NCBI GenBank assembly: GCA_004764695.1
Contig: SMSO01000034.1
Span: 4,348,501-4,412,500, forward strand
Source: Schizochytrium sp. TIO01
Taxonomy: Eukaryota; Sar; Bigyra; Thraustochytrida; Thraustochytriidae
Length of the DNA stretch: 64,000 bases
Direction: 5' to 3'
A model generated the notes under the pieces. It had not been told where the DNA came from. It saw only the letters and a program-made list of their open reading frames with translations, and did not search any database. Below, piece by piece: positions 1,942-50,309 of this stretch (position 1 is the first letter of the stretch; every line of letters begins with the position of its first letter). Both the position numbers and the translations under genes were made by a program.

Positions 1942-1972
<31 letters not shown>

Positions 1973-12994: not shown

Positions 12995-13476
12995 GGAGAT
13001 GGAAATCATGAATTGATTGAAGAAAGGCAGCTAGCGCACAAAGGGAAGAGCGAAGGAGAGCGAAGGAGAAGAAGATCAAAATAGGTCTAGGCAGCAAATC
13101 AACAGTGGGAGGGGATAGATGGCACTGGACGGGCGATAAGTGAGCGATCCACGCGAGCAAAGACGAGCAAAGAAGCACTTGGAAAACCATGTTCATAAAA
13201 GGCACTTTCTTTCTTTCTTTGTTGATTTAAAAAAGAAAAGAAAAGAAGAAAAAAAAGCGATTCAACCCTCCAAAAAAAGGCAATTCCAAAAAGGCGATTT
13301 AAAAAAGCAATAAAGACACAGATTTAAAAAGCAAGCAAGTTGGCAGAAGAGCGAGCAAGACACGAAAAAGGCTTAGCAGCAAGCAGATCCCTAACTCGCG
13401 TTGTTAGTCTGCTCTTGGACAGCTTGCAGGCACAGTCAGCAGTCCCGTCAGTCAGTCAGACAGGCAGTCAGGAACG

Positions 13477-14851: not shown

Positions 14852-16222
14852 GTGCTTCGCATTTCACGAGCATGGGTTGAGCATTTAGAATTATGCTCTC
14901 ACACCCGCTTGCTTGCTCGCTTACTTGCTCACGTAATGGTATCTTGTTCCCTATGCTGAGCTAGCATTCGAGCAATAATTCCCGAGCATTATAACCGTAC
15001 GATTGTGAGAGTCTGAGTGCTACACAAGAATATTAAGGCTTCTTACCACTGACCTGCCTCTCAATACGAAGACAAGAAGAAAGTTGTCCTTGCAATACGT
15101 CGCCCGGGAGGACCCTGCAAATAGTTGTCTCTTTGTGTGCCCTTCAGTGAAGGCATGCCCGCGCTGGAGATCCTGGGCATCTATTTTTCCAACCCCATCC
15201 TTCATCTTACCCTACTTACCCAGCCTTGAGTACCCTTTTTGTATGCGGTGATGATACGTCCATTTACACACACACGAGTCGATCGTCACCGGCAACAAAC
15301 TCAATTTACCTTTAAAACAATACACATAACAAAACTAAACTGTGTTCAGTTAAAAGTTAAAATCATAATTGATTGATGATGATTTTTTATGTGAACCCCG
15401 CCCATTTGGTCTTGTGCTTATTAAATTTAAATTTTACTCATTAATGATGACCAGAAATTCCACCTTCAGAAGAGTTGTCGTAGTCACAATCTCTCGCACA
15501 GTATCATAAACATGTAGGTGCCTAGCGTAGTTACTCGTACCAGAACTCCTTGACATTCTATTTGCAGTGTTTGTTTGGCAAAACTTTCTGATGTTTATCT
15601 ATCGTGAAAGCAACGAAGGATTCGATTTATAATCTTATTTTTGTTATATTTTTATCACCTAGATCATATCAATTTTACAAGTTTGTATTTTTTTTTCTTG
15701 TTTCTTGTTTTACGTTTTTGTTTCTTATTTTTTTGTTTCTGAATAAAGTTATATGTCAACCTAGCGCAAAGTATTGTAACCCTGCTGTTGCTGCTGTTGC
15801 TGCTGAAGGTAGAGTCCTTCACTTTATGGTCATTTTAACATTCTACGGGAGGATGAAATCTGGGGATAAAGTATACAAAGAATCTGCCTCTCGATGAACT
15901 CTTGCCTACAGCAGGAAATCGTTACAAATCATACTTTAATAAATTTTGGACAGGCACCAAAGAAGGGAGTCTAGCTATCAGTATTGTGATCCTAAACAAT
16001 CAAAGAAAAAATGGGATTGTTACATGAGTTTTACTTCTTGTTTTCTTATTTAAATGTCTGGACGATGCACTCCAAAGAGGGAGGAATATATCTAGCTTGT
16101 CTCTCTGCACTTAGTATCAACAAGCTACATCAAAAACTATTTCTTTGTCTTCAGTTACTGCTAATGAAAGGAATTAATTTAGACAAATTTATTTCTTCTC
16201 TTATTTTATAAGCGCACAAAAC
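14852..16222. other. Spacer, no gene seen
   Basis: AT-rich 3' flank between convergent genes: FDXR on plus, ARL2BP on minus. Only short frames of Phe/Leu-rich AT-derived sequence are present. Confidence 0.5.
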
Positions 16223-21600: not shown

Positions 21601-24600
21601 CTGCGACTGCGGCTTTTACCCTCTTTCGAATCACGGAGGCATTGGATCAATTTGTCGCGATCCGAAAACAAAGTTAAGCCCATTGCCCGAAGCTCGCCGT
21701 GTGATAGATCCTTGCATTTTTTGAATGTTGTGTAACCTTTACTGAATAGAAGTTTTGCGTGCTTGTCAAGACCCTCCTTTTTCAAGATCTTCTTGATCTC
21801 CTCCGAGTCGCCGCCCGCGTCACTCCCGCTGCTGCTACTGCTGGTCGAGGATGACCTCTTCTTACTTTTGCTTCTACTGCGGCTCCGGCTGGCGGATTTT
21901 CTACCGCCAGAAGACTTGCCATCAAATGCCTGACATGCTTTGATAATTGCAAAACGCTTTGTCATAGGGATCTCAATACCCTTGAGCTCGATATGAGACG
22001 CACTCTTACCAGCTTTCATGGTAAACCCGGCCTTTTTGGCATCCTTGAACTTGTCCTTCAATCCATTATCATCAAATATCTTCTTCAAAGCTTCCTCCTC
22101 TGCTGCAGAGTCTAGCCCGCTGTCACTGCCAGAATCCTTTGACTTGGATTTGGACCTCGATTTGGACCTCGATTTAGATCTTGACTTAGAGCGGCTCTTC
22201 TTTTTTTTGCTGGAGTCGCTATCACTGCTGCTACTGCTGCTTCCTGAGGATGAATCACTTGAGCCTCCGCCTGCTGAACCACTGTATTTTTTCGGATCTG
22301 CCCTCTTAAAAGCAAGCAAAATATTTGTACGCTGGGCCATGGTTTGAATGCCAGCCTTTTCGAGGTCATCTCCAGTCATATTTTGACCCTTCTTAATCGT
22401 GGTAATCTTCGCCTTTTTCACGATAGCATTGTAGTGCTCCTCAAGGTTGTTGTCTTTAAAAAGGGCCTTGATAGGATCTTTTCCGTCGCTTTTACTACCG
22501 CTTTTCTTCTTCTTCTTCTTGGATTTGTTTCCTTTCTTGGACTTCTTCCTTGAGGTCGAAGAATCACTGTCGTCGCTATCGCTGCTGCTATCAGAAGATC
22601 CAGTATCGCTATCACTATCGCTTTCGCTGTCACTCGTTTTCTCCGAGTCACTATCACTCTCACTGTCGCTTTCACTGCTGTCACTTGAAGAATCGTTCTT
22701 TCTCTTCTTTCCCTTTCGACCCTTCTTCTTAGACTTGGACTTTGACTTTGACGAGCGTTTCTTGGCCTTTTTCTTGGCGGCTGCCTTCTTGAGCTGGCGA
22801 AGCCTCTTCTTTTCCTCTTCCTCCTTTTTCTTTTCTTCTTTTTCAATTCGAGCCTTCTCACGTTCAATGCGTGCCGCAAGACGTCCTGAATTGGCGAGCT
22901 TTTGCAAGTGCTTTTTACGCTTAGCAATGTGCTCCGCAACGTCCGAAGGCTTGTGGTCCTTGAATGCAGCTATAAGCCTCTTCTGCTGTTCTGCGGTGGC
23001 TCCGATCTGATGCCAATCAGATTCGACCTTGTCTTTGAGGATTACAGGGTTACAGTCTCCATTTTTCTTAATTGCAGGAAAGAATGCATCCATACCACAT
23101 GTGCTAAGCACAGTTGCAACTTCTTTCTCAACTAGCTCAATGTCTGATTCTTTTACCTTGAGAAGCTTTGCAGACATTAAAGCAACCGGTTCCTCTGCAG
23201 GGGGGTCTTCCGGAGGTGGTGCTGGAGCAGCAGGAGTTTCTCCAAGAAGCTCTTTAGTCTTGTTCAAAATAATATCGATTCGACCCAAATCATCGATACC
23301 AATTCGCTTAAGATGCGAGTGATTCACACCCTCAAAATCTCGCAAGGCACGGTAACCACCGCGTTCGAGAACACCAATGTAATTGTCCATGGCAAGGTCA
23401 CTGAGCACCTTTCGCAGTTCGGGCTCCATATCAACACCATCTTCATTGCCGCCACCTGAACCGTCGGCCGGAGCTGCCGCTACTGCGTCAGGCTCTTTTA
23501 CCACTGTAGCAGACTTAACGCGGTCAAGTAGCTTTCGACGCGAAACATAGCTGTCAATACCAATATCTTCAAGATCAGGCATAGTCATGTCTCGAACAGC
23601 TTCAAGAGTGGTCTTGCCACAAACTTGGAAGTTGGGGATGTACTGGTCAAGTTTAGTTGCCCGCAGCAAGGTCTCCAAGCCTACCTCGAGCCGCTTCAGT
23701 TGCACACGAGCGTTGGGATCTACATTGGGCGGTAAAGAAGGCTCCCTAATTGGTCCAGAACGAGGAAGTGCAAGTGAGGTACCGCGCAAGCTGACGGGGC
23801 CCACTCTGACTAAAGAGGATTCACGCTGATGTGCTCGCTCTTGAGATCGCGCACGCCGGCGAAGGAGAGACTCAAGAGGGTCAGCTGACTTATCTTCAGT
23901 AGACTCGACTTTGCGAATAATAAGATCACCATGCGTAAGATTCTCTACTCCGGCCTTCTCAAGATCATGAACAGTGACGTTAGTAAAGTCCCGCAGAGTG
24001 CGGTATCCATGCCGGAGTAGACGATCTTTGTAACGTGTAAGCCCCAAGTCTGAAAGAATCTTGTTAAGGCTAGCGTCCATCTCTCCCTCAGAACCATCCG
24101 ATTCTGCATCACTCACGTCTTGCGATGGGCTAATGTTAGGATTGACAATAGTCGCATTCATAATCATATCCATAATAAGGCGGCGGTCATTGTATGCGTT
24201 GACACCGATCTCCATAAGCTGTGGCATACTCATGTCATGTACAGACTCCAAGGTGCATTTCCCTGCGCCCCTAAAGTTACCAAGATAGGCCTGCATACCA
24301 ATTGCACAAAGAAGAGACTCAAGTTCTGGGTCAAGTTCCCTCGGGCGCATGCGAGAATTTGACTCTGAACCAGATCTTGAGCGCATTCGAGAAGTAGAAA
24401 ATCCTCGGTCAGGTCGAGAAAATGCAACTGATTTGCCACGAACGCGTGACGAGTCAGCATGACGAGAGTGATGTCTTTCTAAGGATCGTGCGCGGCGATG
24501 GGTGCCTGATGACCTGCTCGGAAGACCTTGGTACATCTGCGGTGTATATCCACTACGCTGAAGAGATGGTCCACGAGTACGATTTGCTTGTTGTTCAATC

Positions 24601-25898
24601 ATGGCAGCTCTTGATGCCACGGTAGTTTCGATAAGCATCCGGCGTTTTGCGTCCTTCAACGCAGCTGCTTGAAATGCGCTCATCAGCCTCTCGCGCTGAC
24701 TAGCCACATTGATGCCTTTCTCACGAAGCACCTGGTGTGAAAGTGCTTTTGCGCGTGCCAAGGTGTAGTTCTCAAAAAGAGGTTTCATGTGTCCATAGCC
24801 AAGCTCATCTAGTACTGCATGTACCGGGTTTCCTTCGACATCGCTACCATCGCTGGCATCCATGCCGAGCGCACCAGTCTTCAAGTTGCTGCGTCTACGG
24901 TTTCGAAGGCGATCATCATCTTCATCTGAGGATGAGGAAGAGGAAGAAGACGAAGACAAGGAGCTTTCACTATCAGAAGAGGCCGCATCAGGGGGTGTTT
25001 CGTAATTCATGAAGGCATGGAGAATCGCAGCACGGTCCTTGAAGACGGAAATACCCCAAGCTTTCATGTCCTCATGTGTGAGCGCCTGTGCATCTTCAAT
25101 AGTCACGCAATTGTTTTCATCAAACAAGCCCATGTACTTCTGCAATTGAAGGTCACGCAGAACCTTACGTACATCACGGTACTCATCGCGGCCAACCTCA
25201 GTATTTGTCTCCTCTTTCAGGTCCGAAGAATAGCGTCTTTGGCGGCCACTATGGCTTCGCTGCTGCGATGGTTTTTTAGAGGATGAGCGCTTAGAGTGTT
25301 TTGAACTTTGCGATGAAGACCTCACGCGCCCTTTTCCTGAATTTCTCGAAGATGATCTTTTGGAGGATTTGTGCACTGACGGTGACCTTGAGATAGATGT
25401 GGATGACGCTGATACGGATGGTCGACGCGAGGAAGAACGGACCTTGCTCTTAGAGCGGCGTGATCCGCGCGAGTTTGATCGCACTCGAGCAGCCCTCCGC
25501 TCGAACAGCTCCTCGCTTCCGGATGAGGATTCTGAGTCCACATCAGAGTCCAGTTCCGACACGAATAGAAGGTCGTCCATGCGCTCCTTAAAGTTGAAGC
25601 CCGCGTCCTTGTGCAAGTGGCCCTCCACGGCATTCGAAAGCACAGCCGTGCGTAGCGGCAGTACACTGTTGCCACCCATGTTCAGTGCCATTGATTCCTC
25701 AGGCTTTCGTGACACGGAATTGCTTGCACTTCGCCGTGAGACTGAAGTTGTTCGCGCCGCCTTACCCGGCACGATGGGCAAGGCTTTTGACCGCGACGAG
25801 CTCGAAGCAGAGCTACGGCTTCGCGGAGGTTGCGAAGACGATGACGCGTGATGCGTATGCCGGTGGCTCCGAGAGCTGCTCGCAGCGCGGGCGCTCAT
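18654..25898 (-). CDS. Giant scaffold with ~19 tandem SAM-like domains and Ser/Arg/Lys linkers
   Basis: A single uninterrupted frame of 2414 residues. Residues 1-235 are Ser/Arg-rich and disordered. I count about 19 SAM-like units of ~65 residues. Seven lie between ~239 and ~990, a Lys/Glu helical stretch and Ser/Asp tract follow (~1000-1140), then twelve more lie between ~1144 and ~2332. A typical unit has an I(K)(K)-L helix, a mid-domain KxGFxSxKKCxxLxHxDLRxAG and a final MFSDRDKxIxAFK. In the C-terminal half the linkers are SRSRSKSK and SSSSSGSD blocks. The last ~75 residues hold an SH3-like module (IGSYVRYKG, YLVRF) and a Lys-rich end. SAM domains often polymerise and SR tracts bind RNA or splicing factors, so a polymerising scaffold is plausible; function is inferred. 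I know of no named protein with this architecture. The ATG at 25898 starts the open frame. Confidence 0.88.
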   Translation of the reverse strand: MSARAASSSRSHRHTHHASSSSQPPRSRSSASSSSRSKALPIVPGKAARTTSVSRRSASNSVSRKPEESMALNMGGNSVLPLRTAVLSNAVEGHLHKDAGFNFKERMDDLLFVSELDSDVDSESSSGSEELFERRAARVRSNSRGSRRSKSKVRSSSRRPSVSASSTSISRSPSVHKSSKRSSSRNSGKGRVRSSSQSSKHSKRSSSKKPSQQRSHSGRQRRYSSDLKEETNTEVGRDEYRDVRKVLRDLQLQKYMGLFDENNCVTIEDAQALTHEDMKAWGISVFKDRAAILHAFMNYETPPDAASSDSESSLSSSSSSSSSSDEDDDRLRNRRRSNLKTGALGMDASDGSDVEGNPVHAVLDELGYGHMKPLFENYTLARAKALSHQVLREKGINVASQRERLMSAFQAAALKDAKRRMLIETTVASRAAMIEQQANRTRGPSLQRSGYTPQMYQGLPSRSSGTHRRARSLERHHSRHADSSRVRGKSVAFSRPDRGFSTSRMRSRSGSESNSRMRPRELDPELESLLCAIGMQAYLGNFRGAGKCTLESVHDMSMPQLMEIGVNAYNDRRLIMDMIMNATIVNPNISPSQDVSDAESDGSEGEMDASLNKILSDLGLTRYKDRLLRHGYRTLRDFTNVTVHDLEKAGVENLTHGDLIIRKVESTEDKSADPLESLLRRRARSQERAHQRESSLVRVGPVSLRGTSLALPRSGPIREPSLPPNVDPNARVQLKRLEVGLETLLRATKLDQYIPNFQVCGKTTLEAVRDMTMPDLEDIGIDSYVSRRKLLDRVKSATVVKEPDAVAAAPADGSGGGNEDGVDMEPELRKVLSDLAMDNYIGVLERGGYRALRDFEGVNHSHLKRIGIDDLGRIDIILNKTKELLGETPAAPAPPPEDPPAEEPVALMSAKLLKVKESDIELVEKEVATVLSTCGMDAFFPAIKKNGDCNPVILKDKVESDWHQIGATAEQQKRLIAAFKDHKPSDVAEHIAKRKKHLQKLANSGRLAARIEREKARIEKEEKKKEEEEKKRLRQLKKAAAKKKAKKRSSKSKSKSKKKGRKGKKRKNDSSSDSSESDSESDSDSEKTSDSESDSDSDTGSSDSSSDSDDSDSSTSRKKSKKGNKSKKKKKKSGSKSDGKDPIKALFKDNNLEEHYNAIVKKAKITTIKKGQNMTGDDLEKAGIQTMAQRTNILLAFKRADPKKYSGSAGGGSSDSSSGSSSSSSDSDSSKKKKSRSKSRSKSRSKSRSKSKSKDSGSDSGLDSAAEEEALKKIFDDNGLKDKFKDAKKAGFTMKAGKSASHIELKGIEIPMTKRFAIIKACQAFDGKSSGGRKSASRSRSRSKSKKRSSSTSSSSSGSDAGGDSEEIKKILKKEGLDKHAKLLFSKGYTTFKKCKDLSHGELRAMGLTLFSDRDKLIQCLRDSKEGKSRSRSRSKSKGGSSSSSSGSEGSDDESVIKKVLKECNVNDTIRKDLEKKGFKSVKKCAEMSHSDLKQAGMWSYSDREKVLNAFKEAEGKMKTSKSRSRSRSKSKHKSRSRSRGGSSSSSSSSSDSDGGGDDEKKIKKTLQKLEVDDKVRKYLHKKGFTTIKKCKDMQHSDLREAGMVMYTQREKVINAFAEMKASKSRSKSRSRSSSKSSKKKKSRSRSRGRSRGSSSSSSNSSSSGSSGSDSGDDEAAIKKILKKEGLDDFRKNLQKADLMSLKKLKEVNHTDLRNAGITMFAKRDKIISAFKNVSVSKSRSRSRKRSKSKSSKSSKSSKHSKRSSSSSSGSSSGSSGSSSGSSADEWDEIKKVLKKLDKEKYAKEFKKAGLTSFKKTKDLTHANLRVAGVSLFSDRDKMITAFRDLKPSKRSKSRSKSRSRSRSKSKKKRSSSSSSSGSDSSKSSSSGSSSSGSGGSSEDEATIKEILKENKLDQYRKDLFKKGFDSIETCQSLTHADLRSFIVTYSERERLIKAFKAYKPSRKSKSKSKSKSRSRSRSRGRSRGSKRSSSSSSSSSSGDDEALIKDALKSAGMSIYRKKLFEQGFNTVKKCQAMNHADLRSAGISLFSDRDKLMKAMKDLKSSSKSRSKSRSRGRSRGSSSSSESSEGSSDDEEIIKDALKSVRCYSKLSPLLKQGFTVEKALKGSHVELKAVDIPMTQRFEIIKYIKANAEKKPKSRSRSGSRSRSRRRGSSSSSGSSSDADDSAAIRKALKSAGADRYYAIISRRYPTLKQCKELNHTTLRTMNIPTYAERDQIIKAFQAVSSRSGSRSRSRSSSRRRGGSSSEDEELLDLLTDAGVQRYYKAMCNAGFDTVSKCSKLGHPQLRNMGITMFGDREKILNAVKGAVTPSRYGEDARPNMRPKFAIGSYVRYKGTNARVHMGEIGQVANKLPDSKYLVRFGAGRQIREVVCKEIDLAVSYEKPKKKKKFLGLF

Positions 25899-31292: not shown

Positions 31293-34200
31293 TCAAGGAT
31301 CAGCGGGGCCCTCTTTGGAACGCTTCAGCTTAATTTCTGACAAACGACGTTTTCCAAATCGAGAGCTCCAAGATCCTTTTCCTCTCCGCTCCGTGCCCGT
31401 CGAAGGTGGACTTTCCGATGGCTGCGAAGATAGAGGAGCAGGAGGAGGGGGCAGAGAAGCAGAATCAGGATAAGATTGTACAGCATTCGCCAAGCTTGCA
31501 GGTGACGCTGTTGCACCTGTTCCATCCCCTTCTGAAACATGAGAAATATGTGCTGATTCAATCCCTGATGTGGTGTTAAAGCTCTGATCAGATGCATGAG
31601 TTCCCGACTCGCCTTGCTCACCTGTACTCAACGATAGCCTACCAGCGGTGGCATTCCTTTTTTGCATCTCTTTGTAGCGAACGTGAGCTGCGTTGGTTAT
31701 GCCATCTAGTGGTGATGAGAAAACTGGAGATGTTGCCGAAGATGTCATACCGTGGGGAGAAGAGAATGGTGAGAAGCGACGACTCGAGCTGTGTGGCACA
31801 AGTTTTGAGAAGAAAGTATTTAGGCGTCCGAGCGTTCCTTGTCTTGGAGGGATTTTCTTTAAATGGTCAACAGAAACTTTTGCGCATAGCCCTTCGTCAA
31901 ATTGGACTTGGCAATGTGGAGAGGTTAAAAAGGCCTCAATTACCATTCCAGTTGCATTACGCTCAATATCATATACATTATTCACCGTAAGCTTCACGCG
32001 GTCCCCCATCTCAAATTTAAGAGGTGGAAAAGCCTCGCTCACCGGTAGATATGCATCGCCTTGAAATGTTTGACAGTTCTCACATACAATTTGTTCACTT
32101 GTATTGACACGTCGACAGACGCCGCAAACCCAAGGTTCAGCATCCTCCATACCTCGGGAACTTTCATGTCTTGCGTACTGCGCATTATGAGCAGATCGCT
32201 TGCCGCACTGTTCGCATCTAGTCTGTTCTGGGTCATTTCCGTCAAATTGACAAATTCGGCATTTCCAAGTAGAGTTTTCAATGCTATTGTCGTCATCATC
32301 TCCACCTTCCACAAGGCTACTACTACCGCCTGAAAGGCCACCCCGTAGCTTGTTTCGAAAAGGTCCAAGAAAATTGTCATCCTTCGTCTCCATAGTTCGC
32401 GACCGAGATCGTGTTCGGAGCCGCGTAGCACTTCCAGCGTTAACTTGATCAAGACTGCGATGTCGCCGATGGTGCCTCGGCGGAAGCTCTTGGTTTAACA
32501 ACTCTCTATCATCAACGGAGGCAGATTTGGTCTCACTTCTGTTATTGGAGAGCTCGTCGAAACGATCTGCACCAGCCATTGCATTTGCCACACTCGGTCG
32601 CGGGTAACGGTTTCGCCGAAGAAACATCCTCTTATCTTCATCAGCCACGTCATCGTCCTCTGATGTTAGGGGCTTTATATTAGCTTTAATTGAATCAGCG
32701 TCATTCTCACTGTCATCTTCATCGTGTTCATCGAGCGCATCCAGTTTGAGGTCTTTCTTACTATTACGATCTTTACTTGATGACTTCTTATGCCCATCCC
32801 TCGAAGCCCCTGGGCGCAAGAACTTCTTTAAGAGTGGGCCGCCAGCTTTGATTTTCTCTAGAATCTGTTTCCGGTCATGATGGCTTCCCACACCTAATTT
32901 TGAAAGCTTTTGCTTGTTGAGTGATCCGAGCTCTTCTACACTAAAGATCCCGCGCTCTACAAGTTTACTGCGCCAGTCTTCTAAACCAAGCTCTATGATA
33001 GCATCTTCAAACCGAGGTCCTGATTCGTACAAATCTTCAAGTCTTTGACTGGGCCGTCGGGGTTGTGAAAGTGCAGATCCAACCCGTCCATAGTTGTGAA
33101 AAGCACGGATTAGTTTATCCTGGTGCGCAAAGAGTTTTACACCGAACTCTGGAAGCTCATCATGAGTCAACTGTTTTACTGACCGAATGTTGATAAAACC
33201 CATGGAACGAAAGCCATCCATGTACTGGCTGAGACCTAATTTGTCAAGCAGTTCACTCAGTAAACGACCATCCTCCTCATCATCGTCAAAGGCTTCAGCA
33301 TCGAAACCATCAAGCTCGGAGCCGCTGCTGACGATCGCAGATGCCCCATTACGGAATCGGCGTCGACGTCGAGGTGCTTCAAGGTTTGTAAACAAAAGTA
33401 GACCATCTAAGCGATCCCCTGTAGAAGGCAGTGGCAACTGGAAACTCTCTACAATTCTCTCTTTCAAAGGTGCGTTTTCGACAAAGCTTGCCCAAGCTTC
33501 TTCCTCGTCACCCATTTGAAGCTGCACTGATGCAGATACCCGATACCAGTCAGACCAAGATTTACTAACTTTCACAGTGTTGGAACAGAATTGTTCTGCG
33601 TAGGGTTCGCTGGTTATGATATGATAGAGGCTCACAGTTTGACGGGAGGAAAGCGCACGTGCTTTGGCTTCAAGAAGTTTTCTGTGTTTAGCTACTGCAA
33701 GGATGCGCTGTTGGCGCTGTTGATTCAATCCTCCCTCAGCCTTTGGCCTAGTATTGTCACCCTTGCTGTCATCAAACTCTATTTTTGCGGTTGGTGATAA
33801 TGGATTAGACGTCGCTGCGGGGACGCTGAGGATCTTAGAGAGCCTTCGACCGGTTGTCTCGTAACGCCGAGAGTGATCGAGCGAGTAGCTACTAGACAGT
33901 GCTGCTGCAGATATCAAGTCCGGTGTTGGAAACTCGCCAGAAGTCCTGATATGATTCACGGCAAGTGCATGGTCAACGAAGGAAATACTTCGTAGTTTCT
34001 TTGACTGGGATTCTTGTCGCAGTTGGGATAAGCGAGTACTTCCACGTTTCAAGTGTATCATCCAGGCCAAGGCTTGAGCCCAACGCTCACGCAAGGCAGC
34101 ATCTGACATTCGAAACATATGAACTTGGCCGGGACCAACAGTAATTTCTAGGTAATTGTGCCCAAGTTGATCTACAACATTTAGTGCTTTCACTTGTGTT

Positions 34201-37200
34201 TCCGCATCGATTTCAATTTGCTCTGTGATTTCCTCTCGAATGTATAAGAAAAGAATGTTTTGATGTAAAATAGCAAAACGATCCTTCCATGCAGAACGAC
34301 TACCGTCTTTGTCAATGCGTAACTGCATCTGACCATTTGTAAGAAAACTCGATGAGAATCGACCGGCCAGCTCATCCAAGGGAGAAAGTACAAAATCTAT
34401 GAAAGTTGGCGGATTTGTGATATCTGACGCCCAACCATTGTGATCCTCAGGTCGAAGGACATCACAGAAACTTAGGGTGCGCAATACTCCCCCAATCTGA
34501 GTGTTCACCTGAACGGACGTAATCTCCTTTGAGTCTCCACCTTGCACAATTGAAGCAGTTGTTATGTCCGGAACCAGGATCTCTTCCCAAGACCTTTTCC
34601 CAGTGACAGGGTCAAGTAAGATTAATTGAGCGCCAGGATTGTTTGTAAGAACGAGAATCTGCCGTTTGCGCTTAGCAGCTTTGGGCAAACCTGGGACAGA
34701 ATTTGTTATGAGAACCATCGAGGATCGAATAGGGCTCTGGATCGAAGTGAGTCTGGCGCAACTCTGATTACGACAAATTGTAGCCATTTTCATCCGCTGA
34801 CGAACCAGATGGCCTCGCCAATACTTTTGGATCGGTAGTACCATGGTTGAAGCACGAACATCCGAGGAACGACACAGAAAACGTCTTGCTAAAGCCTGGA
34901 TGCGAATCGCAGCACCACGTACAATGAGGAAGTCATTCCGAATTCGAAAAAGACGAAAGGCATTTAAAATTCGAAGCGCAGCACTTCGATAGAACGCTGG
35001 ATCAAGAATTCTCTCATACACAAATCGCTGAATCTTGACGACTGCTTCAATTTTCTCAACCAGTTTCATGAATTCATGCTGCAGTTTGGTAGCTGCTTTG
35101 TCTCTCACTCGCCAGCGGCAGCATTCTAATATGCGCTGCGCCTTGAGAGATAGATAAAAGACTGCATCATCAGCATGAGGATCGTCGCTGGTACTCAGCC
35201 AACGAGTACGCTCAGGGCCAAGAATCACCTCAAGAATGTCTGGCGCATGTTTGCCGATCTCTGGTTCAAACCTTCGCGCAATTGGCCAAAATCTTACCAC
35301 AACATCATCACCACAAACTCGAGTTGGGAAAAGCTGGTTGCGTACATCGCATAGCTGTCGAAACCCTGCATAGTCAAATTGCCGCACCATGGCAGCATCG
35401 TCCCAGACCATTGGATGAAAACTCAGATTTGGCATAAAACAACGAACAAACCATTGGTTGGTGCTTTCGAGTATCTCTGAGAGAGCACTTATTTCTTCAC
35501 GTCGGTTTTGAGCTGTGGTTCTTGTTTCTGCTCGCTGGTTCAAGATTTCAGTCTCGCTCTGCTCCTTATGTGCACGAAATTGAGCCTCTTTGTATAAAAG
35601 AGATAATACAGAAGAAACCCCTTGATGAAATAACTCCAGAAATTGCACACTTGAGACTTGGCATGGTCTTGCGTTTGCTGACACAAGGCCACGGGCGTCA
35701 TATTCGAGAAAAGAGCCGCCATAGTGCCGGACACGGAAAGATTCATAACCAAACATTGCGCGTTGCAGATATCGCTTGCTTTCATGGACAACAAGTAGAA
35801 CTTGAACAAGATCAGCATCCTCCTGACTTTGTCGACCACGGATAAGTGATTGTTCATCAAGAAGGCAAAAGACGCCTTCTGGATGGCCAACAAACATACT
35901 CAAAAGTTGCTGGCTAGCTCGAAGAGGCTTGCTTCGGGCAACCTCCTGGCAGAGGTCTGGAAGTCTTGCCTGCTCGCTGCGGTGTAACGCATCTTCATAC
36001 AGGTGCTCAAGAACCTCGTTAGCAAAGTTTTGAAAAAGAGCCTCGCTTGAAAGAAGTGGTGATGTGGCAAATGTGGCAGGGCTGTCCGCAGAGGTCCCTC
36101 GCATACCACAACTTGGTGCCATGAAGTCTTGATCAATATCCTCCCCGGCGATACCATATACAAAGGAGGCGTATTCTACGACGTTCAAGCATAGGTCTTC
36201 TACTCCTGGAGACCTTCGGCCCATGTTATGCCCAAGTTTTGCATTAATAGCACCTAACAGAAAGTCAAACAAGTTGCTGTATACATGCTCGATAAAGCGA
36301 TTACGCATCTCTGCTGCGCCTTCAGGATTGAAAGGACTAGCCAAATCATCAGAATCATGGTAGTCGCGGAAAAGAAACGCGCGACTTAAACGAGCGTGTC
36401 CTACACCGAGCAAGTGGCATGCCCGCTCAAGAGAAGATGCACTATTCCCGACTGTGCTAACGACGGCCTTTGCAACCGCAGATTTGGTTTCTGTGTCAGA
36501 ATTCGCATCCTCCTGATATTCAGGGTTTTCCTCAAATTGAACGTTACTGAGGAGCAAGAGAGCTGTGAGGATACGCATAAGGTCCTCCTGCACATTAGTA
36601 TCCAGGCCTATATCTGAGAGCGCACTTAACGTCGCTCTGAACGCGGATGCCCGAGTATAACGAAACTTGGATGAATGTTTATCTTTAGGCTTCAGGTGCC
36701 TCCGAAAGGTTACATCATCTGACCCAAGCATCTGATATCGTGATGGTTTATCGAGATCCAGATTCTGTGATACTGGAGCTTCGGACCAACCATTGCAGAG
36801 TTGGTAAAATATATGAAAATTACGCTCAAGGGGGGGCTTTTGAACAAGGCGATTCACATCAAACATATGTGCTTCATACCAAACACTTGAGATGGCATAT
36901 TGCGGCTCGACGGAGGAACTCCCACTGCTGGAATTTCCACTTGACGGTCTCATAATAAGACGTACATTTTTGGTGTAGCAAGTTGTATCTGCACACCGTA
37001 CTGAGCTTGCATTACCAAAAGCCTGGAGGATAATCTCTGCTGCAGTGATTTGCTTTTCAAAAGCAACTTTATCAAACAAAGCTGATTTTGATGTCGTCAG
37101 ATAATGGACAAGTTCTGACCCCAGTCGTGATTTTCCAGAACCAGACATTCCAGTAAGTACAACTGATTGAGATACAGCAGCATCTCCATTCACAGTAGCA

Positions 37201-40200
37201 TCAAACGCTTGATCAGCGAGAGAAAAAATATGTGCCGAAGGAGACATTAAGTATGATGAAACAGGGAGTGCTTTGGGGGTAAAAAGGTCGCTAACTTCGT
37301 GACAGGGATTGACTGCCGCAAGAACATTTGTAGAGATCCAGGTGAATACTTGCTTGCGTCGAACAAAGCGGTCACGCAAGCGAAAGGCTATAACTGCTTC
37401 GTTGAGGTCATCGAATTCAGAAAGTTGGTCATCACCGACATACTCTACGTCGATGTGGCCAGGGTGTACAGGTAAAGCTCGGTCTAGAGGAACAACTATA
37501 CTTTCCGTGGCACCATCACAGCGAACACGCATGGAGGTCTTATAACATTCATCCAAGGTTGCAAGACACCATCCAGCCGAATCTTGAGGACGTACCCATG
37601 CGCGATGTGCAATCTCTGCAACAGGATAGTCTTTGATGCGCATTAACCAGTCCCACCCTGGTGTGAAGGGTCCCGGTGGAGGTCTGTAGGTTCCTTCGGG
37701 TTCAAGTTTGCTTCGACGGCGAGCTACCCATTTTGAATCGACAACTCCAAGCTCTCGGGGAGGTGCCAAAAGACTTGGGCGCCCAGACGATATTTGAAGA
37801 TTACTGGGAACAGGCACAAATCGCTCAATGCCAACACGTAGAGGACGCTCCTGAGTATTGATCCACTCCATAATTGCATCTTTCTCACGAATATCATCGT
37901 CGTCGATAATCCTGTCTTCTGTTAATGGAAAGAAACTTCTTTCTCCCATATAGATAATACGGTTTCCTTTACTGATTGCAGATTCAATATCTGGAACAGC
38001 TTCCTTAAACAGATCATAGTCAAGGCCTGATAGCTCCAGTGTTCCATCATCCATAATGTTAAATCCAAATCCGACATCTTGCTGTTCCACACTTAATTCT
38101 GTGATAACACTAACGAGATTGGTTGGTTGTGGCGGTTGCTCAATATAGGCTGAAGCAGGCACCTCATGTTTTTCTTTAAGCTGCCTCTCTTCATCTGAGC
38201 CAACAGTGAATTCCCGCTCCGACTGTTTGGAGTGTCTGCGCCGACGGCGACGAGAACTTCGATCCCTCCTTGTTGTAAGCCCTCCATTGTTATATTCATC
38301 TATCGAGCCGTCGGCCTCGTCTTCATCATCCTCATCCTCTCCCTGATACTCGATATCCTTATCTTGTAAATCAAAGTTAGATTCATCTATTTTTCTGCGA
38401 CTGCTTTCTGATGCGGGCGAAACATCAGCTCCATTAATCCTATCTTCTTCTGCAATGATCTCTACTTTATGTTGAGCATGAGGACTCAACACTTCATCCA
38501 GAGCTCCTGCATCGTTGCAAGAGGCTGGATGTGAGCGTGGTTGTAAATGGTCCAGTTTAAGGATGTCATTGTGTTGGTCTGATTCATCGTAGTCAACATG
38601 ATTTCTTGTCTCAATCTCATGACGGTGAGGTGACCTGCGCCTCTCACTGCGACGCCGAGGGCGGTGCTCTTCATCCTCACGCGAGTGTGCAACTGAACCA
38701 TTGGGCACAAGCCTATGCCCCTCTTCAGGTACCGGTTCTAAAGAGGGCGACGACATTGGAGAGCTGGGAGAGCTAGGAGAAGCCTTAGAAACAATTTCAT
38801 TCGATTGAAGGGATAAAGCTACCAATGAGGAGCTTGGAGTGCCTTTACTACTGCTTGACCTTCGTTTTGAAGATCTCCTTTTAACCTTGTTACTGCTGGT
38901 AGAAGAAGAATCACGCATGCTGTTTGGCCCCTCAAGACGGCTCTGTTGGTAATCAGACTCAGATACAGTTGCATCAGAAACATCTTGACTATCCATATCT
39001 TCATCTTCTGCAGACCCCATGCGCAAGACGACAGGTTGGTCTGCTCGTATCACATGTGACTCTTCTATAGATCCTGCTGGTGACGTTGCTTCTTTAAGGC
39101 TACTTATCGCCTTTGATGGCCATTCTGCAAATTCTTTACTCTGTCTGTCTTCGTCATTCGCTACGTTCTCTTCTTCTTGAATTGGTGCCTCAATGACACT
39201 TTCCAGGCGTTGGGATGAATTATTTTTGAGGTGATCGCGTCCCATATCCGACAGTTGAGGTGCTGACATTGAATGCGACATCCGTGCAGCTGCAGAGGAC
39301 GCACGCTGTCGGGGTTTAGGGTCACCCAGAAAATCGCTGTCGATAGCATCATCCTCAGCGCTGGCTAGTTTACCGTCAATCCGAGTAGAACCGTCTTGCT
39401 CACTGCCGACATCTTCCCCACTTTGAGATTCTGAAGCGCGAGATGTTTTCGATGCCCGTCTTCGTCGATGGCTATTAAGTTCATTTTTAAAAGAAATATT
39501 GATTTCGGCAGCTGGTGTACTCTGGCGGCGACGTTGACGTACTTCTGGCTGAGCTCCTTTGTCCAGTGACAGGGACCCACCCTGCTCAGTTTCAGACCAT
39601 GAGCTCCGTGCCAAAGACCCCCCTGTCGGCAAGGGTGTGGATAGGTCTGCAACAGTTACGGAAGCCCGTCTCCCTGTGACTAATGCAGCCTGAGATAGTT
39701 TGTCACTGCTGCTGTGACTTCGTTTAATAGTATTTAGACTGTCCCGCCCTAGATTTACATCATCCTTACTAATACTTCCATCTAGTGCTGAATCAGCTGT
39801 GGAAGCCCTACGCATTGGTTTTGAAGTGAGTTTCTTGTCACGTGAGAGTGGCACGGGCTCGCCCGAGTCAGACATAGATGCTGTGGCCGTATCTTTGGCC
39901 TTCGCAGATGACTTCCTTTTCCGATGGGATTTTCGTATTGACTTTGTGTCAGCCCCATGTTCTTCTGAGAGCGTTGAAGTGGATTTTCCACTCCTTGCTG
40001 TGCTTGACTGGTCCTCTCCCCTTTCCACAATCTGTATTTCTGAGAGTACCTCTGCAGTTGTTGGAAGTGAAGGTTTCCTACGACTGGCCACATGCTCCGA
40101 TTCACCGCCGACATTCACCTCCTTACGAGATTTCCGGGACTTTGTAGACCTGCGGCGTGACTCTTCATTAGACACAGATCCTGCATCTTCACCATTTTCT

Positions 40201-40247
40201 ATTGCGTGGGCTTTTTCCACACTCTCCTCGCCCCTCGATTTTGCCAT
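31293..40247 (-). CDS. Degenerate myosin motor fused to IQ, PH, two SAM, two RanBP2 zinc fingers and SH3-like domain
   Basis: About 2984 residues in one frame. I chose the ATG at 40247, since the open frame upstream begins with GTG. Order: Ser/Arg/Asp-rich N-terminus (1-~780); myosin-like motor (~1000-1690) with P-loop GMSGSGKS near 1033; IQ-type helices (~1690-1810, IQALARRFL and IQKYWRGHLVRQR); PH domain (~1970-2075, MQLRIDKDGSRSAWKDRF to WAQALAWMIHL); SAM 1 (~2322-2385) and SAM 2 (~2413-2470); zinc fingers WKCRICQF (~2656) and WVCGVCRR (~2702), each with CxxC pairs; SH3-like module (~2740-2795); and a disordered tail. The family switch I (NxNSSRFGK) and switch II (DISGFE) are absent; in their places are FGNASSVRCADTTCYTKNV and LNVVEYASFVYGI. 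Nucleotide binding may remain, but normal ATP hydrolysis is unlikely. It probably acts as an actin- or membrane-linked scaffold; this is inferred. Confidence 0.87.
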   Translation of the reverse strand: MAKSRGEESVEKAHAIENGEDAGSVSNEESRRRSTKSRKSRKEVNVGGESEHVASRRKPSLPTTAEVLSEIQIVERGEDQSSTARSGKSTSTLSEEHGADTKSIRKSHRKRKSSAKAKDTATASMSDSGEPVPLSRDKKLTSKPMRRASTADSALDGSISKDDVNLGRDSLNTIKRSHSSSDKLSQAALVTGRRASVTVADLSTPLPTGGSLARSSWSETEQGGSLSLDKGAQPEVRQRRRQSTPAAEINISFKNELNSHRRRRASKTSRASESQSGEDVGSEQDGSTRIDGKLASAEDDAIDSDFLGDPKPRQRASSAAARMSHSMSAPQLSDMGRDHLKNNSSQRLESVIEAPIQEEENVANDEDRQSKEFAEWPSKAISSLKEATSPAGSIEESHVIRADQPVVLRMGSAEDEDMDSQDVSDATVSESDYQQSRLEGPNSMRDSSSTSSNKVKRRSSKRRSSSSKGTPSSSLVALSLQSNEIVSKASPSSPSSPMSSPSLEPVPEEGHRLVPNGSVAHSREDEEHRPRRRSERRRSPHRHEIETRNHVDYDESDQHNDILKLDHLQPRSHPASCNDAGALDEVLSPHAQHKVEIIAEEDRINGADVSPASESSRRKIDESNFDLQDKDIEYQGEDEDDEDEADGSIDEYNNGGLTTRRDRSSRRRRRRHSKQSEREFTVGSDEERQLKEKHEVPASAYIEQPPQPTNLVSVITELSVEQQDVGFGFNIMDDGTLELSGLDYDLFKEAVPDIESAISKGNRIIYMGERSFFPLTEDRIIDDDDIREKDAIMEWINTQERPLRVGIERFVPVPSNLQISSGRPSLLAPPRELGVVDSKWVARRRSKLEPEGTYRPPPGPFTPGWDWLMRIKDYPVAEIAHRAWVRPQDSAGWCLATLDECYKTSMRVRCDGATESIVVPLDRALPVHPGHIDVEYVGDDQLSEFDDLNEAVIAFRLRDRFVRRKQVFTWISTNVLAAVNPCHEVSDLFTPKALPVSSYLMSPSAHIFSLADQAFDATVNGDAAVSQSVVLTGMSGSGKSRLGSELVHYLTTSKSALFDKVAFEKQITAAEIILQAFGNASSVRCADTTCYTKNVRLIMRPSSGNSSSGSSSVEPQYAISSVWYEAHMFDVNRLVQKPPLERNFHIFYQLCNGWSEAPVSQNLDLDKPSRYQMLGSDDVTFRRHLKPKDKHSSKFRYTRASAFRATLSALSDIGLDTNVQEDLMRILTALLLLSNVQFEENPEYQEDANSDTETKSAVAKAVVSTVGNSASSLERACHLLGVGHARLSRAFLFRDYHDSDDLASPFNPEGAAEMRNRFIEHVYSNLFDFLLGAINAKLGHNMGRRSPGVEDLCLNVVEYASFVYGIAGEDIDQDFMAPSCGMRGTSADSPATFATSPLLSSEALFQNFANEVLEHLYEDALHRSEQARLPDLCQEVARSKPLRASQQLLSMFVGHPEGVFCLLDEQSLIRGRQSQEDADLVQVLLVVHESKRYLQRAMFGYESFRVRHYGGSFLEYDARGLVSANARPCQVSSVQFLELFHQGVSSVLSLLYKEAQFRAHKEQSETEILNQRAETRTTAQNRREEISALSEILESTNQWFVRCFMPNLSFHPMVWDDAAMVRQFDYAGFRQLCDVRNQLFPTRVCGDDVVVRFWPIARRFEPEIGKHAPDILEVILGPERTRWLSTSDDPHADDAVFYLSLKAQRILECCRWRVRDKAATKLQHEFMKLVEKIEAVVKIQRFVYERILDPAFYRSAALRILNAFRLFRIRNDFLIVRGAAIRIQALARRFLCRSSDVRASTMVLPIQKYWRGHLVRQRMKMATICRNQSCARLTSIQSPIRSSMVLITNSVPGLPKAAKRKRQILVLTNNPGAQLILLDPVTGKRSWEEILVPDITTASIVQGGDSKEITSVQVNTQIGGVLRTLSFCDVLRPEDHNGWASDITNPPTFIDFVLSPLDELAGRFSSSFLTNGQMQLRIDKDGSRSAWKDRFAILHQNILFLYIREEITEQIEIDAETQVKALNVVDQLGHNYLEITVGPGQVHMFRMSDAALRERWAQALAWMIHLKRGSTRLSQLRQESQSKKLRSISFVDHALAVNHIRTSGEFPTPDLISAAALSSSYSLDHSRRYETTGRRLSKILSVPAATSNPLSPTAKIEFDDSKGDNTRPKAEGGLNQQRQQRILAVAKHRKLLEAKARALSSRQTVSLYHIITSEPYAEQFCSNTVKVSKSWSDWYRVSASVQLQMGDEEEAWASFVENAPLKERIVESFQLPLPSTGDRLDGLLLFTNLEAPRRRRRFRNGASAIVSSGSELDGFDAEAFDDDEEDGRLLSELLDKLGLSQYMDGFRSMGFINIRSVKQLTHDELPEFGVKLFAHQDKLIRAFHNYGRVGSALSQPRRPSQRLEDLYESGPRFEDAIIELGLEDWRSKLVERGIFSVEELGSLNKQKLSKLGVGSHHDRKQILEKIKAGGPLLKKFLRPGASRDGHKKSSSKDRNSKKDLKLDALDEHDEDDSENDADSIKANIKPLTSEDDDVADEDKRMFLRRNRYPRPSVANAMAGADRFDELSNNRSETKSASVDDRELLNQELPPRHHRRHRSLDQVNAGSATRLRTRSRSRTMETKDDNFLGPFRNKLRGGLSGGSSSLVEGGDDDDNSIENSTWKCRICQFDGNDPEQTRCEQCGKRSAHNAQYARHESSRGMEDAEPWVCGVCRRVNTSEQIVCENCQTFQGDAYLPVSEAFPPLKFEMGDRVKLTVNNVYDIERNATGMVIEAFLTSPHCQVQFDEGLCAKVSVDHLKKIPPRQGTLGRLNTFFSKLVPHSSSRRFSPFSSPHGMTSSATSPVFSSPLDGITNAAHVRYKEMQKRNATAGRLSLSTGEQGESGTHASDQSFNTTSGIESAHISHVSEGDGTGATASPASLANAVQSYPDSASLPPPPAPLSSQPSESPPSTGTERRGKGSWSSRFGKRRLSEIKLKRSKEGPADP

Positions 40248-42049
40248 GCTCGTCACGAATATAATAAATTTGTCACAGTGCTTTGCACAGCTCTTATTTT
40301 TTCAACTAGCTTTGGTCCTCTCGGGTTAAATACCACAAAGAATCTTTTCACAACACTATTTTTGAAGAAACAAATAATGCCTGGCTTTTAGAACTGACAC
40401 AACGTCTTCACTTGACACAGAATGTTATATTTGAAAAATGAAAACCCAACTCTGCACTAGAAAATATTGCCCAAGACGAAAAGTTCGGCCTTACGAAGCT
40501 AGACTTGGTAGCTTCCCTAGCTTAATCTTCAACCCAAATCCCAACGGACTCTAAGCGTTCGCTTTCACAGGTACCAACTACTAAAATCCTCGCGCGCGAC
40601 AATATATCTATGATATGGAATCGTTGATATATGTGCCTTTTCTCTCCCACGTTCGTAAATATATACGCGCTCACTCCAAGTGGGACTTAGATCAACCTAT
40701 CTGGAGCTGTTTTGACGGGCTAACAGGTTCCAATGCGAGACTACCTTTACGATTTGTCTCGTCTTCGCGTCTTGATCTTCTTCCTCAGCAGGCTAGGTCT
40801 AAAAGGAGGCGGTGCATGCACAACTAAGAAATTTTACCAAGCCGACGAACGAAGGAATTGGCAGAAAAAGTGAATGATTTCGACCCAGCTTTCTTTGAAC
40901 GTAGGCTGAAGAGATATTGCCAGGGCTTTGAAGGCAACGGAATTGGGGCCAGTCCTGCTCCTCCAGGTGCACTAAGCCGGAGTCTGTGGTTCTTGCCACA
41001 GATTTCTTCCGCCTTGCACAAGCCGTAGCAAAGGGATCGGTAAGCTCCCAAAGACCGACCTCGGCAGTGAGAGCGACTCTGGAGACTATGGGGTGAGACG
41101 AAGCAGCTTGAGGGACAGCTGGAAAAAGCTTGTTAGGCGATTCCCTCGCCTACGAGCTTCGAAAGGCGCCGCGCACGGGCCGGCGCGCGATACTTTGCAA
41201 GTGCCTCTTCCGTGTAAATGCTCGCTCGCAAGAGCACGGCCTGGACACCCTTCCGCAAATACATTATTCCTCTATACCCCTAATGGGGGCTTCCCGGGAA
41301 TACAAAACGCTAATACTCAATATATGTATCGGTAGATCCAAATGGAGAGTATATTAGAAGTTAATTTTAGCCGACTGGTCTAGACGTAAAAGCTTCATTG
41401 ACCCAAGGGAAAATGCGTTTTGTAAGGACCCCATAATTACAATATCCCAAATAAAGGTGGATTAGATGAATCCATATGTTGTAAATAGTGGAGAAAGCGG
41501 GAGTTAAGAAGATTGGGAAGTTAGAGAATATGAGGGAGTTTGTGCAGAACTGAATCCGTGGCGCGGAAAAGGTGTGCACCACAGGCGCGGGGCTCCATAT
41601 TTGCTGCACGTGTTGTGAAGAGTGATACGAAAAGACTCGAACTGAGTAGGAGGAGGTGATACACTACAGCGTTTACAGAAAGTGGAGAATGGATGAATAA
41701 AAATTTTGAGGTCTGCATGACGGCCTAGGAAAAGTTGGCATTGTTGGTTCTGAGAATCAATTTTTGGGCGCAAGGTGTAGCTTTTTGTTGAGGATCGATG
41801 CAGCAAGGCTCGCTTTGGAGCATCAGTTGAACCTAGAGCTCAAAGCGAGGCAGCTGGGACGAGGACGACCACCGAGCTGATTTCTCCTCATCGATTCGCT
41901 GAGTTGACTGATAGGCTGACTTGTTGATTAGTTGAGTGCCTGAGTGAGAAGCCAAAGCGGTGACAGTGGTCTGAAGACAGTAAGATATTGACTCTGAAGG
42001 TTGTAGGCATTCCTTTCAGTAGTGGAGAAGGGCAAACGTGAACGTAAAG
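40248..42049. other. Divergent promoter region, no gene seen
   Basis: 1.8 kb between the myosin fusion (minus) and the unknown gene at 42050 (plus). 41040-41260 is GC-richer and unexplained. No frame longer than about 100 codons with protein character. Confidence 0.5.
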
Positions 42050-47304: not shown

Positions 47305-49634
47305 CTAGAGATCAACTTCGGTATCGGAATGGGCTGCTGCTCCATTCGCGATCTGGGCTTCTAGGGAGCGGATATGCTTTCTAAGGTCCTCAACTTCTGC
47401 AGCATACGATTGAGCACCCGACTCAAGGAGAGACTTCATTTCCTTCAAGGCTACGTTCTCTTGTAAGAGTGCTTCGAGGCGTTGAGCGAGCTGCAACTTG
47501 ACACCATCATCTGGCTTTGAAGTTGCGGCAGCAGGTGCATGTTGATCGTTAGTCCCTTGGCGTTTGCGCATTAGGCCACTAATAGAAGGTCCCTTTCGCG
47601 ATTGAGCCTGCAAGAGGTCTTGCTCAAGTTGAGCTATTCTTTCCTCAAATTCCCTACGAGTGTTTTCAGCATCAACGCGAGCCTGCTCGGCAGAGTCTGT
47701 AATGTCTTCGAGACGGCGTTTCAAATCAGCACTTATTGCCGTTTCACGAGACAATTGGCCTTTGAGTTCCTTCACAAGAGTAATGGCTCTTTTAGAAGCA
47801 ATTTTATGCTCTACAGTTTGCTCCTCAAGCTGCTTCTCGAGGTTCTCTACGTTCTCTAAAGCTCTTTCCTTGTGTTCTCTTTCTGCGTTGAGCGAAGCTC
47901 GTACAGACAAAAGAGCTTCCTCGGCTTCCGCAGCCCTTTCCTCAGCAGCTTGCCGAGCTTCTTCTGCGGACTTGAGGGAAGCCTCGGCTTGTAAAGCTCG
48001 TTCGGCATCCCGTTCGGCTGTTTCACGAATATTTTTGAGATTTTCCTCCGCCTCTGAAGCACGTGGTCTCAAGGAATCTAGCTCTTCTTCTGCCTTTTGG
48101 AGTGCCTCAGTTTTGATTGCCAAGTCTGCTTGTGAAGAAGCGAGTTGAGATTGGGCTTGTGCTTTACGGCGAGCTGCTGCTTTGAGCTTCTCAGAAACCT
48201 TTTCAAGCTCAGAAGATTGTTCCTTAAGTTTGTTCTCTAAACCAGAATCTTGGTTTGCAGATGTTTGTAGTTTCGTTTCGAGTTCCTTTTTCTGAATCTC
48301 AAGTTCATTCTTTTGAGCTGCAAGATCCTTGGCTTGTTTCTCGAGAGATAAAATTCGAGCTTTGGCGCCTTCGAGCTCTTTAGCTGTAGCTGCTGGCACA
48401 GATGAGGGTACACTTGTGATCTCAAGGGCATCTTTCAGAGTCTTGACTTGCTGCTTGAGGCTAGAATTCTCATCGTTTAAGCGTTGAATTTCATTAGGTG
48501 CTTGTTCATTTGCCTTGAGAGCTTGTGAGACCTTGCGTAGATCTGCATCCTTTTGTGCAATATCTGCACGTGCATCTTTGAGATCGTCTTCAGCTTTGAA
48601 TCGAATCTCCTTCTCTGCCATCATCTGTTGGCTCAATTTGGCCAAATCTTCCCTTAGGGCTGCAAGCTCCACACGTAGTTGCTCCTGGTCATCATCCTCA
48701 TCAACCTCTTCATCAATGTTTCCCACATTTTCTTGGTCTTGGTGAGATTCTTGGTTCTCTGCGCTTCCTTCGAGCACGGTGTCTGAGACTCGCTCCTGCG
48801 AAGTCAGATTATCTACAGGGTCTTTCCCTTGATGGTCTTCGCCTGCGTTGCATTGTGCGTTTGGGGTTTCTTCGAGCTGGTTCTCCTCACCCTGTTTGAG
48901 GTTTCCCATCAGAGTCTCTTCTTGACTTTCCTTTTCATCTTCTACTTGGTCTTCCTTTGCAGCTTCCTGTTGAACCTCCTTTTCAACTTCAATTTGATCA
49001 CCTTTTACACTCTGCTTTGTTTTTTTTCTTGATCATCCTCTTGATCATCCTCTTGATCATCCTCTTGATCATCCTCTTGATCATCCTCTTGATCATCCTC
49101 TTGATCATCCTCTTGATCATCTACTTGATCATCCACTTGATCATTCCCTTGATCATCTACTTGATCATCTTCTTGATCATCCTCTTGATCATCTCTTAGA
49201 TCGTCTTCTTGATCATCTCTTAGATCGTCTTCTTGATCATCTCTTAGATCGTCTTCTTGATCATCTCTTAGATCGTCTTCTTGATCATCTCTTAGATCGC
49301 CTTCTTGATCTGGGTGTTTGTCCTCACCTTCCTGTGCATCTGCATCTTGATCCTGGTCCTGGTCAGAGTCATTTACCTTGTCTCCATTCTCAGTTTCAAT
49401 ATCTGACGCATTTCCACTTCCTTCTTCATATTTATCGCTCTTTATATCCTCATTTTCTCCTTCGCTTTCCTCGTTGTCGTTTGATTTGTCCGTATCATCG
49501 CCAGCACCTTCAGGCGCAAGAGCTGTAGCAGCGGTCTCGTCGGTCGTTGCCTTGAGAGGGACATCATCTCCAGCGACATCTGCATCGACAGCTGTCTTCT
49601 GGTCTTCACCAGCGTTCTCCTTCCCCGCAGACAT
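47305..49634 (-). CDS. Acidic-repeat coiled-coil protein, frame change in an A8 run near 49020
   Basis: Two frames join at GAAAAAAAAC: the upper frame (ATG at 49634) reads through acidic repeats, then stops at 49005. The lower frame continues without a stop into a long coiled coil ending at 47305, and its first in-frame ATG (48909) already lies inside acidic sequence. A -1 shift on the A run, or one missing A, makes one protein of about 775 residues. Residues 1-~105 are acidic and Ser/Thr-rich; ~105-205 are DDQE and DDLRDDQE repeats; ~240-750 are heptad-rich coiled coil (for example LKAAARRKAQAQSQLASSQ). No catalytic domain is seen. The architecture suggests a structural or tethering rod, but coiled coils of this type cannot be assigned from sequence alone. 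The alternative is two separate genes. Confidence 0.75.
49022..49310 (-). repeat. In-frame 12/24-nt tandem repeat encoding DDQE and DDLRDDQE
   Basis: On the plus strand the unit is a GATCATCCTCTT-type 12-mer, followed by five units of a 24-mer containing CTTAGATCGTCT. Unit length is a multiple of three, so copy number can change without breaking the frame. Confidence 0.92.
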
Positions 49635-50309
49635 CGTGGCAGTCGAACCTCGCACGAAATATCAATCGCTCGGAGCTGCGCAGGAGCAGCTTTCTGCGAG
49701 AACAGGTCTGCTGTGCATTCATTCATTTTGAGCGCTTCGCAAATCTTCAACAAATCCAGCCCTTTCTTTCTCTCCCCTTATTCCACAGTGAGAATCAATC
49801 CTCTACTATAGGTTTTACCGCATAACTCACTTACAGCTGTCACTTACACAAGTTTATAGCAGGATATGAGCAGCATTGTAATATTCTGCACGCATTAGTT
49901 CGATACAAGTCATTGCATAGTAGCCCTGATTAGACAGAGGGAACCGAAGCGCTAGACGGGAAGAGAGTCCACTGTGAGAGGCGATTCTTTTGGCTGCCAG
50001 TTTGTTTCACTTTGTGCGATATGTTTCACTTTCGGGTTTGTAGTTATAGTAGACTATAGGTTTAGTTGTGTTTTGTAAAGTGCGGTCAATAGGCGCAAAG
50101 AAGAGAATGGCTCATACATTGCTTGTGAGTATGTAATACGGGGTTTATGGACAGACTCGTAAAACATAAGGGGAACTGTGGCACTTGTAGGAAAATGGCA
50201 TGGAGAAAAGGAGCAGGTCTGAGGAGGTCGAAAATCGCTGGAGCCCAGAACGGGAATTGAGGACTAAACAGCAAACCACCGTCGAAGCTGTCCACATTGG
50301 CAGGCCAGG
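49635..50309. other. Divergent promoter of coiled-coil gene and SHQ1
   Basis: 0.7 kb; no gene or clear motif seen. Confidence 0.5.

Follow-up and report, generated by a model that had tools for sequence, protein, structure and literature searches.

A probable myosin-derived pseudoenzyme with replaced switch motifs and a modular tail in Schizochytrium sp. TIO01

Myosins with defective catalytic switches have already been published, and they test how far the motor fold stays useful without its engine. The class-18 myosins (Myo18) are reported to have negligible ATPase activity, a changed P-loop glutamate, and many deviations in switch I, and to have lost the switch II glutamate and with it the salt bridge; their switch II retains the sequence DTxGFQ and their switch I arginine is conserved, and the motor carries a loop extension after switch 2 as well as an N-terminal extension (PMC11112018). 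Among protists, MyHd from T. cruzi is presented (PMC7300353) as a MyoH-derived "pseudomyosin" whose pocket suggests that it is likely inactive and which is located at the cytopharynx, an endocytic structure. Stramenopiles have lineage-specific myosins as well, namely classes XXI, XXX, XXXI, and XXXIII. Some of these myosins have a PH domain, and the tails described for them contain PX, WW, Tub, ankyrin, or Aida_C2 modules; SAM domains, RanBP2 fingers, or degenerate switches are not mentioned in the sections on these classes (PMC3942036, PMC2375034). Also, an orphan myosin with a SAM domain was reported by Odronitz and Kollmar 2007 for Monosiga, a choanoflagellate, from gene models that these authors call preliminary, and RanBP2 fingers are not mentioned in the corresponding section (PMC2375034). 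The protein analyzed here shares with it the presence of SAM in a myosin.

In the window, that is, the whole stretch of 64,000 nucleotides that was analyzed, a minus-strand frame at 31293-40256 runs for 2987 codons without a stop, the chance of such a run being about 1e-68 when computed at this GC content. Its first ATG is at 40247 on the minus strand. The GC content by codon position is 0.58/0.45/0.39, and when codon usage is scored in blocks of at most 200 codons, taking as reference the 44 myosin heads of this genome that are intact (see below), the true frame is above both other frames of the same strand in 15 of 15 blocks. The head scores inside the range spanned by these 44, seven of which are lower, and the N-terminal and tail parts score under every one of them, which may reflect a different kind of sequence. 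The 2987 open codons and the coding signal throughout speak against a decaying gene. The features of the protein are as follows.

31296..40247, minus strand: reading frame starting at the first ATG and ending with the last sense codon, about 2984 residues, no intron needed.
38187..40247, minus strand: N-terminal extension, residues 4-690, long, rich in Ser, Arg, Glu, and Asp and of low hydrophobicity (composition along the protein).
37767..38159, minus strand: pre-head stretch, residues 700-830, globular-looking, PDZ-like by eye only.
35076..37448, minus strand: divergent myosin motor head, residues 937-1727 (Pfam Myosin_head and PDB matches).
37128..37151, minus strand: P-loop GMSGSGKS, residues 1036-1043, Walker A kept, the E of GESGAGKT changed to M.
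36969..36995, minus strand: switch I position, CADTTCYTK replacing NxNSSRFGK (ungapped alignment).
36153..36188, minus strand: switch II position, LNVVEYASFVYG replacing IGVLDIFGFEVF (ungapped hand alignment).
36051..36152, minus strand: 34 residues separate switch II from the relay helix, versus 3 in the sister head L001, about 31 of them inserted.
34800..34901, minus strand: two IQ motifs, IQALARRFLCR and IQKYWRGHLVR (Pfam on a cut-out piece, and patterns).
34377..34709, minus strand: possible first PH-like stretch, residues 1850-1960 (by eye, no matching search).
34047..34334, minus strand: PH domain (weak), residues 1975-2070 (Pfam).
33087..33281, minus strand: SAM domain 1 (Pfam SAM_1).
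32847..33035, minus strand: SAM domain 2 (Pfam SAM_1).
32205..32267, minus strand: RanBP2-pattern zinc finger 1, WKCRICQFDGNDPEQTRCEQC (spacing pattern and weak Pfam match).
32073..32132, minus strand: RanBP2-pattern zinc finger 2, WVCGVCRRVNTSEQIVCENC (spacing pattern and weak Pfam match).
31851..32027, minus strand: SH3-like stretch, residues 2744-2802 (by eye).

The initial annotation had described a myosin-derived head with a surviving P-loop and no switch I or switch II signatures, and these claims hold on closer inspection. Pfam identifies Myosin_head in two stretches of the whole protein (E = 2.8e-65), and a PDB search with the head retrieved 172 sequences with E up to 1, starting at 5.5e-32, all of the best 60 of the 172 being myosins. 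Both printed PDB alignments break at the place where switch II is expected. The motor sequence is traceable through the converter to a lever with two IQ motifs, and FGNA, ERxxHxFYxL, LLDEQS, and FVRCxxPN are retained along the head. At the nucleotide pocket, Walker A is kept, as are the purine-binding NP and a number of residues following switch I; the P-loop has Met at a position that holds Glu in 43 and Asp in one of the 44 intact sister heads. At the aligned places, the switch signatures prove to be replaced, not missing: switch I reads CADTTCYTK, and the LDIFGFE core of switch II has become VEYASFV. A scan of the whole protein and of all six frames of the region retrieved neither N-x-[NH]-SSR nor D-x-x-GFE, and hence the recovery of these motifs at another place, which the initial annotation had named as its refutation, did not occur. 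In Dictyostelium numbering, the changes are N233C, S236T, S237T, R238C, F239Y, and G240T with K241 kept in switch I, and D454E, G457S, and E459V with F458 kept in switch II. Since R238 and E459 are both replaced, both ends of the switch salt bridge are lost. After the insertion that follows switch II, the relay helix picks up again at SSEALFQNFANEVL.

Myo18 would be the best analogue for how this protein works: like Myo18A and Myo18B, it has a changed P-loop Glu, many deviations in switch I, a lost switch II Glu and salt bridge, an extension after switch II, and an N-terminal extension, the latter being probably disordered here. In contrast to Myo18, the head has other residues at the two ends of the salt bridge and through most of either switch motif. 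The protein also resembles MyHd in being a myosin-derived protein of a protist that is likely inactive by its pocket, although MyHd is without a P-loop and belongs to another lineage, whereas the present head keeps the P-loop and loses the switches.

The genome itself (G000 in the coordinates below; 64.06 Mb, 37 contigs) offers a comparison, with at least 67 myosin-head matches. Grouped by hand, these 67 matches correspond to 47 head loci including the one in the window; the other 46 were fetched and all 47 were aligned. In 44 of the other 46 heads, the P-loop G[ED]SG[AS]GK[TS], N-x-[NH]-SSRF, and D-x-x-GFE are all present, switch I being N-x-NSSRF in 43 and NxHSSR in one, and 42 of these intact heads each lie within one open frame. 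SSRF and D..GFE are unchanged in 44 of 44. The remaining two heads, L031 and L032, are degenerate, with GLDHTTTTS and GIMEAGKR, respectively, at the P-loop. Having 44 intact and three degenerate heads in one genome provides an internal control for which residues are dispensable once catalysis is dropped.

Conservation across 40 or more of the 44 intact heads defines a set of 84 alignment columns. In the automatic alignment, the head of the window keeps 48 of them, L031 25, and L032 30, and the intact heads keep a fraction of 0.80 to 1.00 when each is left out in turn. Because the automatic alignment spread switch II across a gap, this motif was realigned by hand for the count by element, which leaves out one of the 84 columns, lying outside the listed elements. 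In this count, switch I keeps one of eight and switch II one of six conserved positions, together two of 14, versus 44 of 69 for the rest (Fisher p 0.0009, switch II hand-aligned); the automatic alignment gives two of six for switch II and three of 14 for both switches together (p 0.006). Erosion also reached the relay helix, where 7 of 13 conserved positions are kept, and the SH/converter region, with 6 of 10 kept, and conserved positions away from the pocket are lost as well, for example K610M, G644L, and G699I (L001 numbering). The losses are concentrated at the catalytic site, which uniform decay would not predict, yet this distribution is not proof of selection.

The head is highly divergent, its identity to the intact heads being 25-26% at best with a median of about 22%, and its end branch has 3.2-3.9 changes per site versus a median of 0.7. 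Only quick trees were computed, one with all 47 heads and one with 45 (L031 and L032 left out), and the head is placed differently in the two; with such long branches its placement is unsafe, and we provisionally treat it as an orphan. In the 45-head tree, 11 other heads (L024-L027, L029, L030, L033-L035, L043, and L046) form one group with a support of 100. As for the degenerate heads, L031 (G000:C4:521800-525600, plus-strand frame 1065-3470) has 802 codons and a Pfam myosin head at 2.2e-13; its P-loop is lost and its alignment shows no switch motifs. L032 (G000:C30:6340300-6344600, minus strand) matches the Pfam head at 1.5e-25 and seems, by eye, to run on into a further open frame that is converter- and lever-like and ends in an acidic tail rich in Ser, Arg, and Lys.

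For the tail, the initial annotation had proposed IQ, PH, two SAM, two RanBP2 fingers, and an SH3-like module, and the Pfam searches support part of this order. The two SAM_1 domains are found at E 3.1e-15 on the whole protein and 2.5e-18 on cut-out pieces; the closest PDB match of the pair is a Caskin-1/EphA6 construct (3.3e-9), whose best stretch covers the first SAM. The two IQ motifs also pass on cut-out pieces (E 9.1e-5, 22.4 bits against a cut-off of 20.3). In the same scan, the PH domain (E 1.4e-4, 22.8 bits) is under the 25.1 cut-off, and the two Zn_ribbon_RanBP matches (E 0.0015, 18.2 bits) are under the 27-bit cut-off, although both fingers fit W-x-C-x2-C-x(10-11)-C-x2-C. In the PDB, the finger region has weak matches that are diverse in kind (best 0.012), and we therefore propose no ligand for the zinc fingers. 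The SH3-like stretch gave no Pfam match in the scan of cut-out pieces, and no alignment was obtained between it and a similar C-terminal module suspected in the neighboring SAM-repeat protein. A first PDK1-like PH domain, suggested by eye at residues 1850-1960, was backed by no search; a MACPF match in that stretch (17.8 bits, under the 21.5 cut-off) was taken as due to chance.

A PDZ domain before the head, as in the alpha isoform, would have matched Myo18A. By eye, residues 725-830 (GFGF ... KGNRIIYMGERS) suggested such a domain, but Pfam, the PDB, and a PDZ search of the same genome did not support it: no family was recognized in the stretch by Pfam or the PDB, it is missing from the 35 PDZ matches of the genome, and a profile built from 15 of these 35 scored it at 0.1 bits. 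This put it 48th among 389 reported rows, and its own shuffles make up 41 of the 47 that rank higher. With no search in its favor, a PDZ domain is not claimed.

Myo18 tails are coiled coils. The present tail appears to differ, with PH, SAM, SAM, and two zinc fingers, and a crude heptad scan placed its five best stretches in the lever and PH region, with none further down the tail. The layout also differs from class XXXI, in which PH is flanked by ankyrin repeats with a C-terminal Aida_C2; no Pfam match to ankyrin or C2 was obtained in the whole protein or in the tail pieces. A full-text search of literature that includes few subscription journals showed, among the best-ranked papers (20 of 42 and 15 of 25), no title on a myosin with PH, a SAM pair, and RanBP2 fingers, and this tail combination is apparently unreported within the literature searched.

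Regarding the relatives of the other modules, the genome contains no further good match to the PH region, the zinc-finger region, or the pre-head stretch: the best remaining E values are 0.018 and 0.028 for the first two, and the third has no further match. The best genome matches of the SAM pair are SAM-repeat proteins, one on contig C7 (5.3e-11) and one encoded about 5 kb from the myosin-head gene (5.1e-9):

18654-25898, minus strand: giant SAM-repeat protein, 2414 residues, 13 SAM_2 stretches counted, with Ser/Arg/Lys-rich linkers.

SAM-rich relatives of this giant protein are seen on contigs C7 and C13.

Taken together, these data suggest, with a probability of roughly 0.68, that the protein is a myosin-derived pseudoenzyme serving as a scaffold and not as a motor. 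Because neither switch is kept, nor the salt bridge between them or the junction from switch II to the relay helix, the head most likely cannot run an ATPase and power-stroke cycle. Since Walker A is kept, nucleotide may still bind weakly. The head would then serve for docking in a static or slowly regulated manner, with actin perhaps among its partners, although actin binding may be gone too, because conserved positions outside the pocket are also lost. The IQ motifs could dock calmodulin-like light chains, with possible control by calcium or by the light chains. The presence of PH, a SAM pair, and RanBP2-pattern fingers points to scaffolding: the tail would anchor the head, with the PH domain directed to the membrane and the zinc fingers to some partner, while the SAM pair would bind further SAM proteins, for example the neighboring SAM-repeat protein. 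From this anatomy we infer a cortical scaffold rather than a transporter. If related protists share the protein, it would define a pseudomyosin class. A bolder version, which we regard as a long shot, is that at least three heads of the genome belong to a lineage-specific group of myosins that lack switches and were remodeled into ATP-independent cortical scaffolds, and that this one would use its SAM pair to join the giant SAM-repeat protein in an actin- and membrane-bound SAM lattice, for example at the bothrosome or ectoplasmic net of a thraustochytrid-like protist.

The retained parts of the pocket could also be read as those of an unorthodox yet active myosin, with Thr in place of the switch I Ser and Glu in place of the switch II Asp, which would hydrolyze ATP slowly and work as a strain sensor or slow motor. 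Both changes are conservative and, with GxxGxGKS intact, make slow hydrolysis conceivable; the purine-binding NP and the residues kept after switch I go in the same direction. Nonetheless, both salt-bridge partners, the first Asn of switch I, and the Gly of switch II are all replaced, about 31 residues are inserted where switch II meets the relay, and none of the 44 intact sister heads changes SSRF or D..GFE, so this reading is unlikely.

The very long branch and the median identity of about 22% would instead fit a former motor under relaxed selection, in which the head is functionless and the tail maybe functional. The erosion of relay and converter positions and the codon usage, with the head low in the sister range and the N-terminal and tail parts under it, agree with such decay. 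However, 2987 codons with no stop or frameshift, a coding signal in every one of the 15 blocks, losses concentrated in the switches, and the presence of the converter region, the IQ motifs, and the tail make it rather improbable. A chimera or misassembly joining an unrelated tail to a myosin fragment could be suspected from the PH, zinc-finger, and pre-head stretches that lack good matches elsewhere in the genome, but the single continuous frame, coding in every block, and the order of head, converter, IQ, and tail, which is normal for a myosin, leave it hardly credible.

Among viral contigs, no relatives were found with the whole protein as query, and an alignment of 13 of the 44 intact heads gave 37 pattern matches, none of them confirmed. 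Apart from myosins, the genome encodes a PfaA-type PUFA synthase (1157 bits, over the curated cut-off, with neighboring matches within the frame), a cut-off passed by none of 14 control genomes. This enzyme and the 42 intact heads that each occupy a single open frame suggest a labyrinthulomycete (thraustochytrid-like) protist. Within the window, 13468-14862 holds long frames on opposite strands, of 464 residues on the minus and 418 on the plus strand; the latter resembles by eye a ferredoxin/adrenodoxin reductase, and hence the minus-strand frame is probably its mirror. Finally, a minus-strand frame at 49005-49655 ends in many acidic repeats of the DDQEDDQE type.
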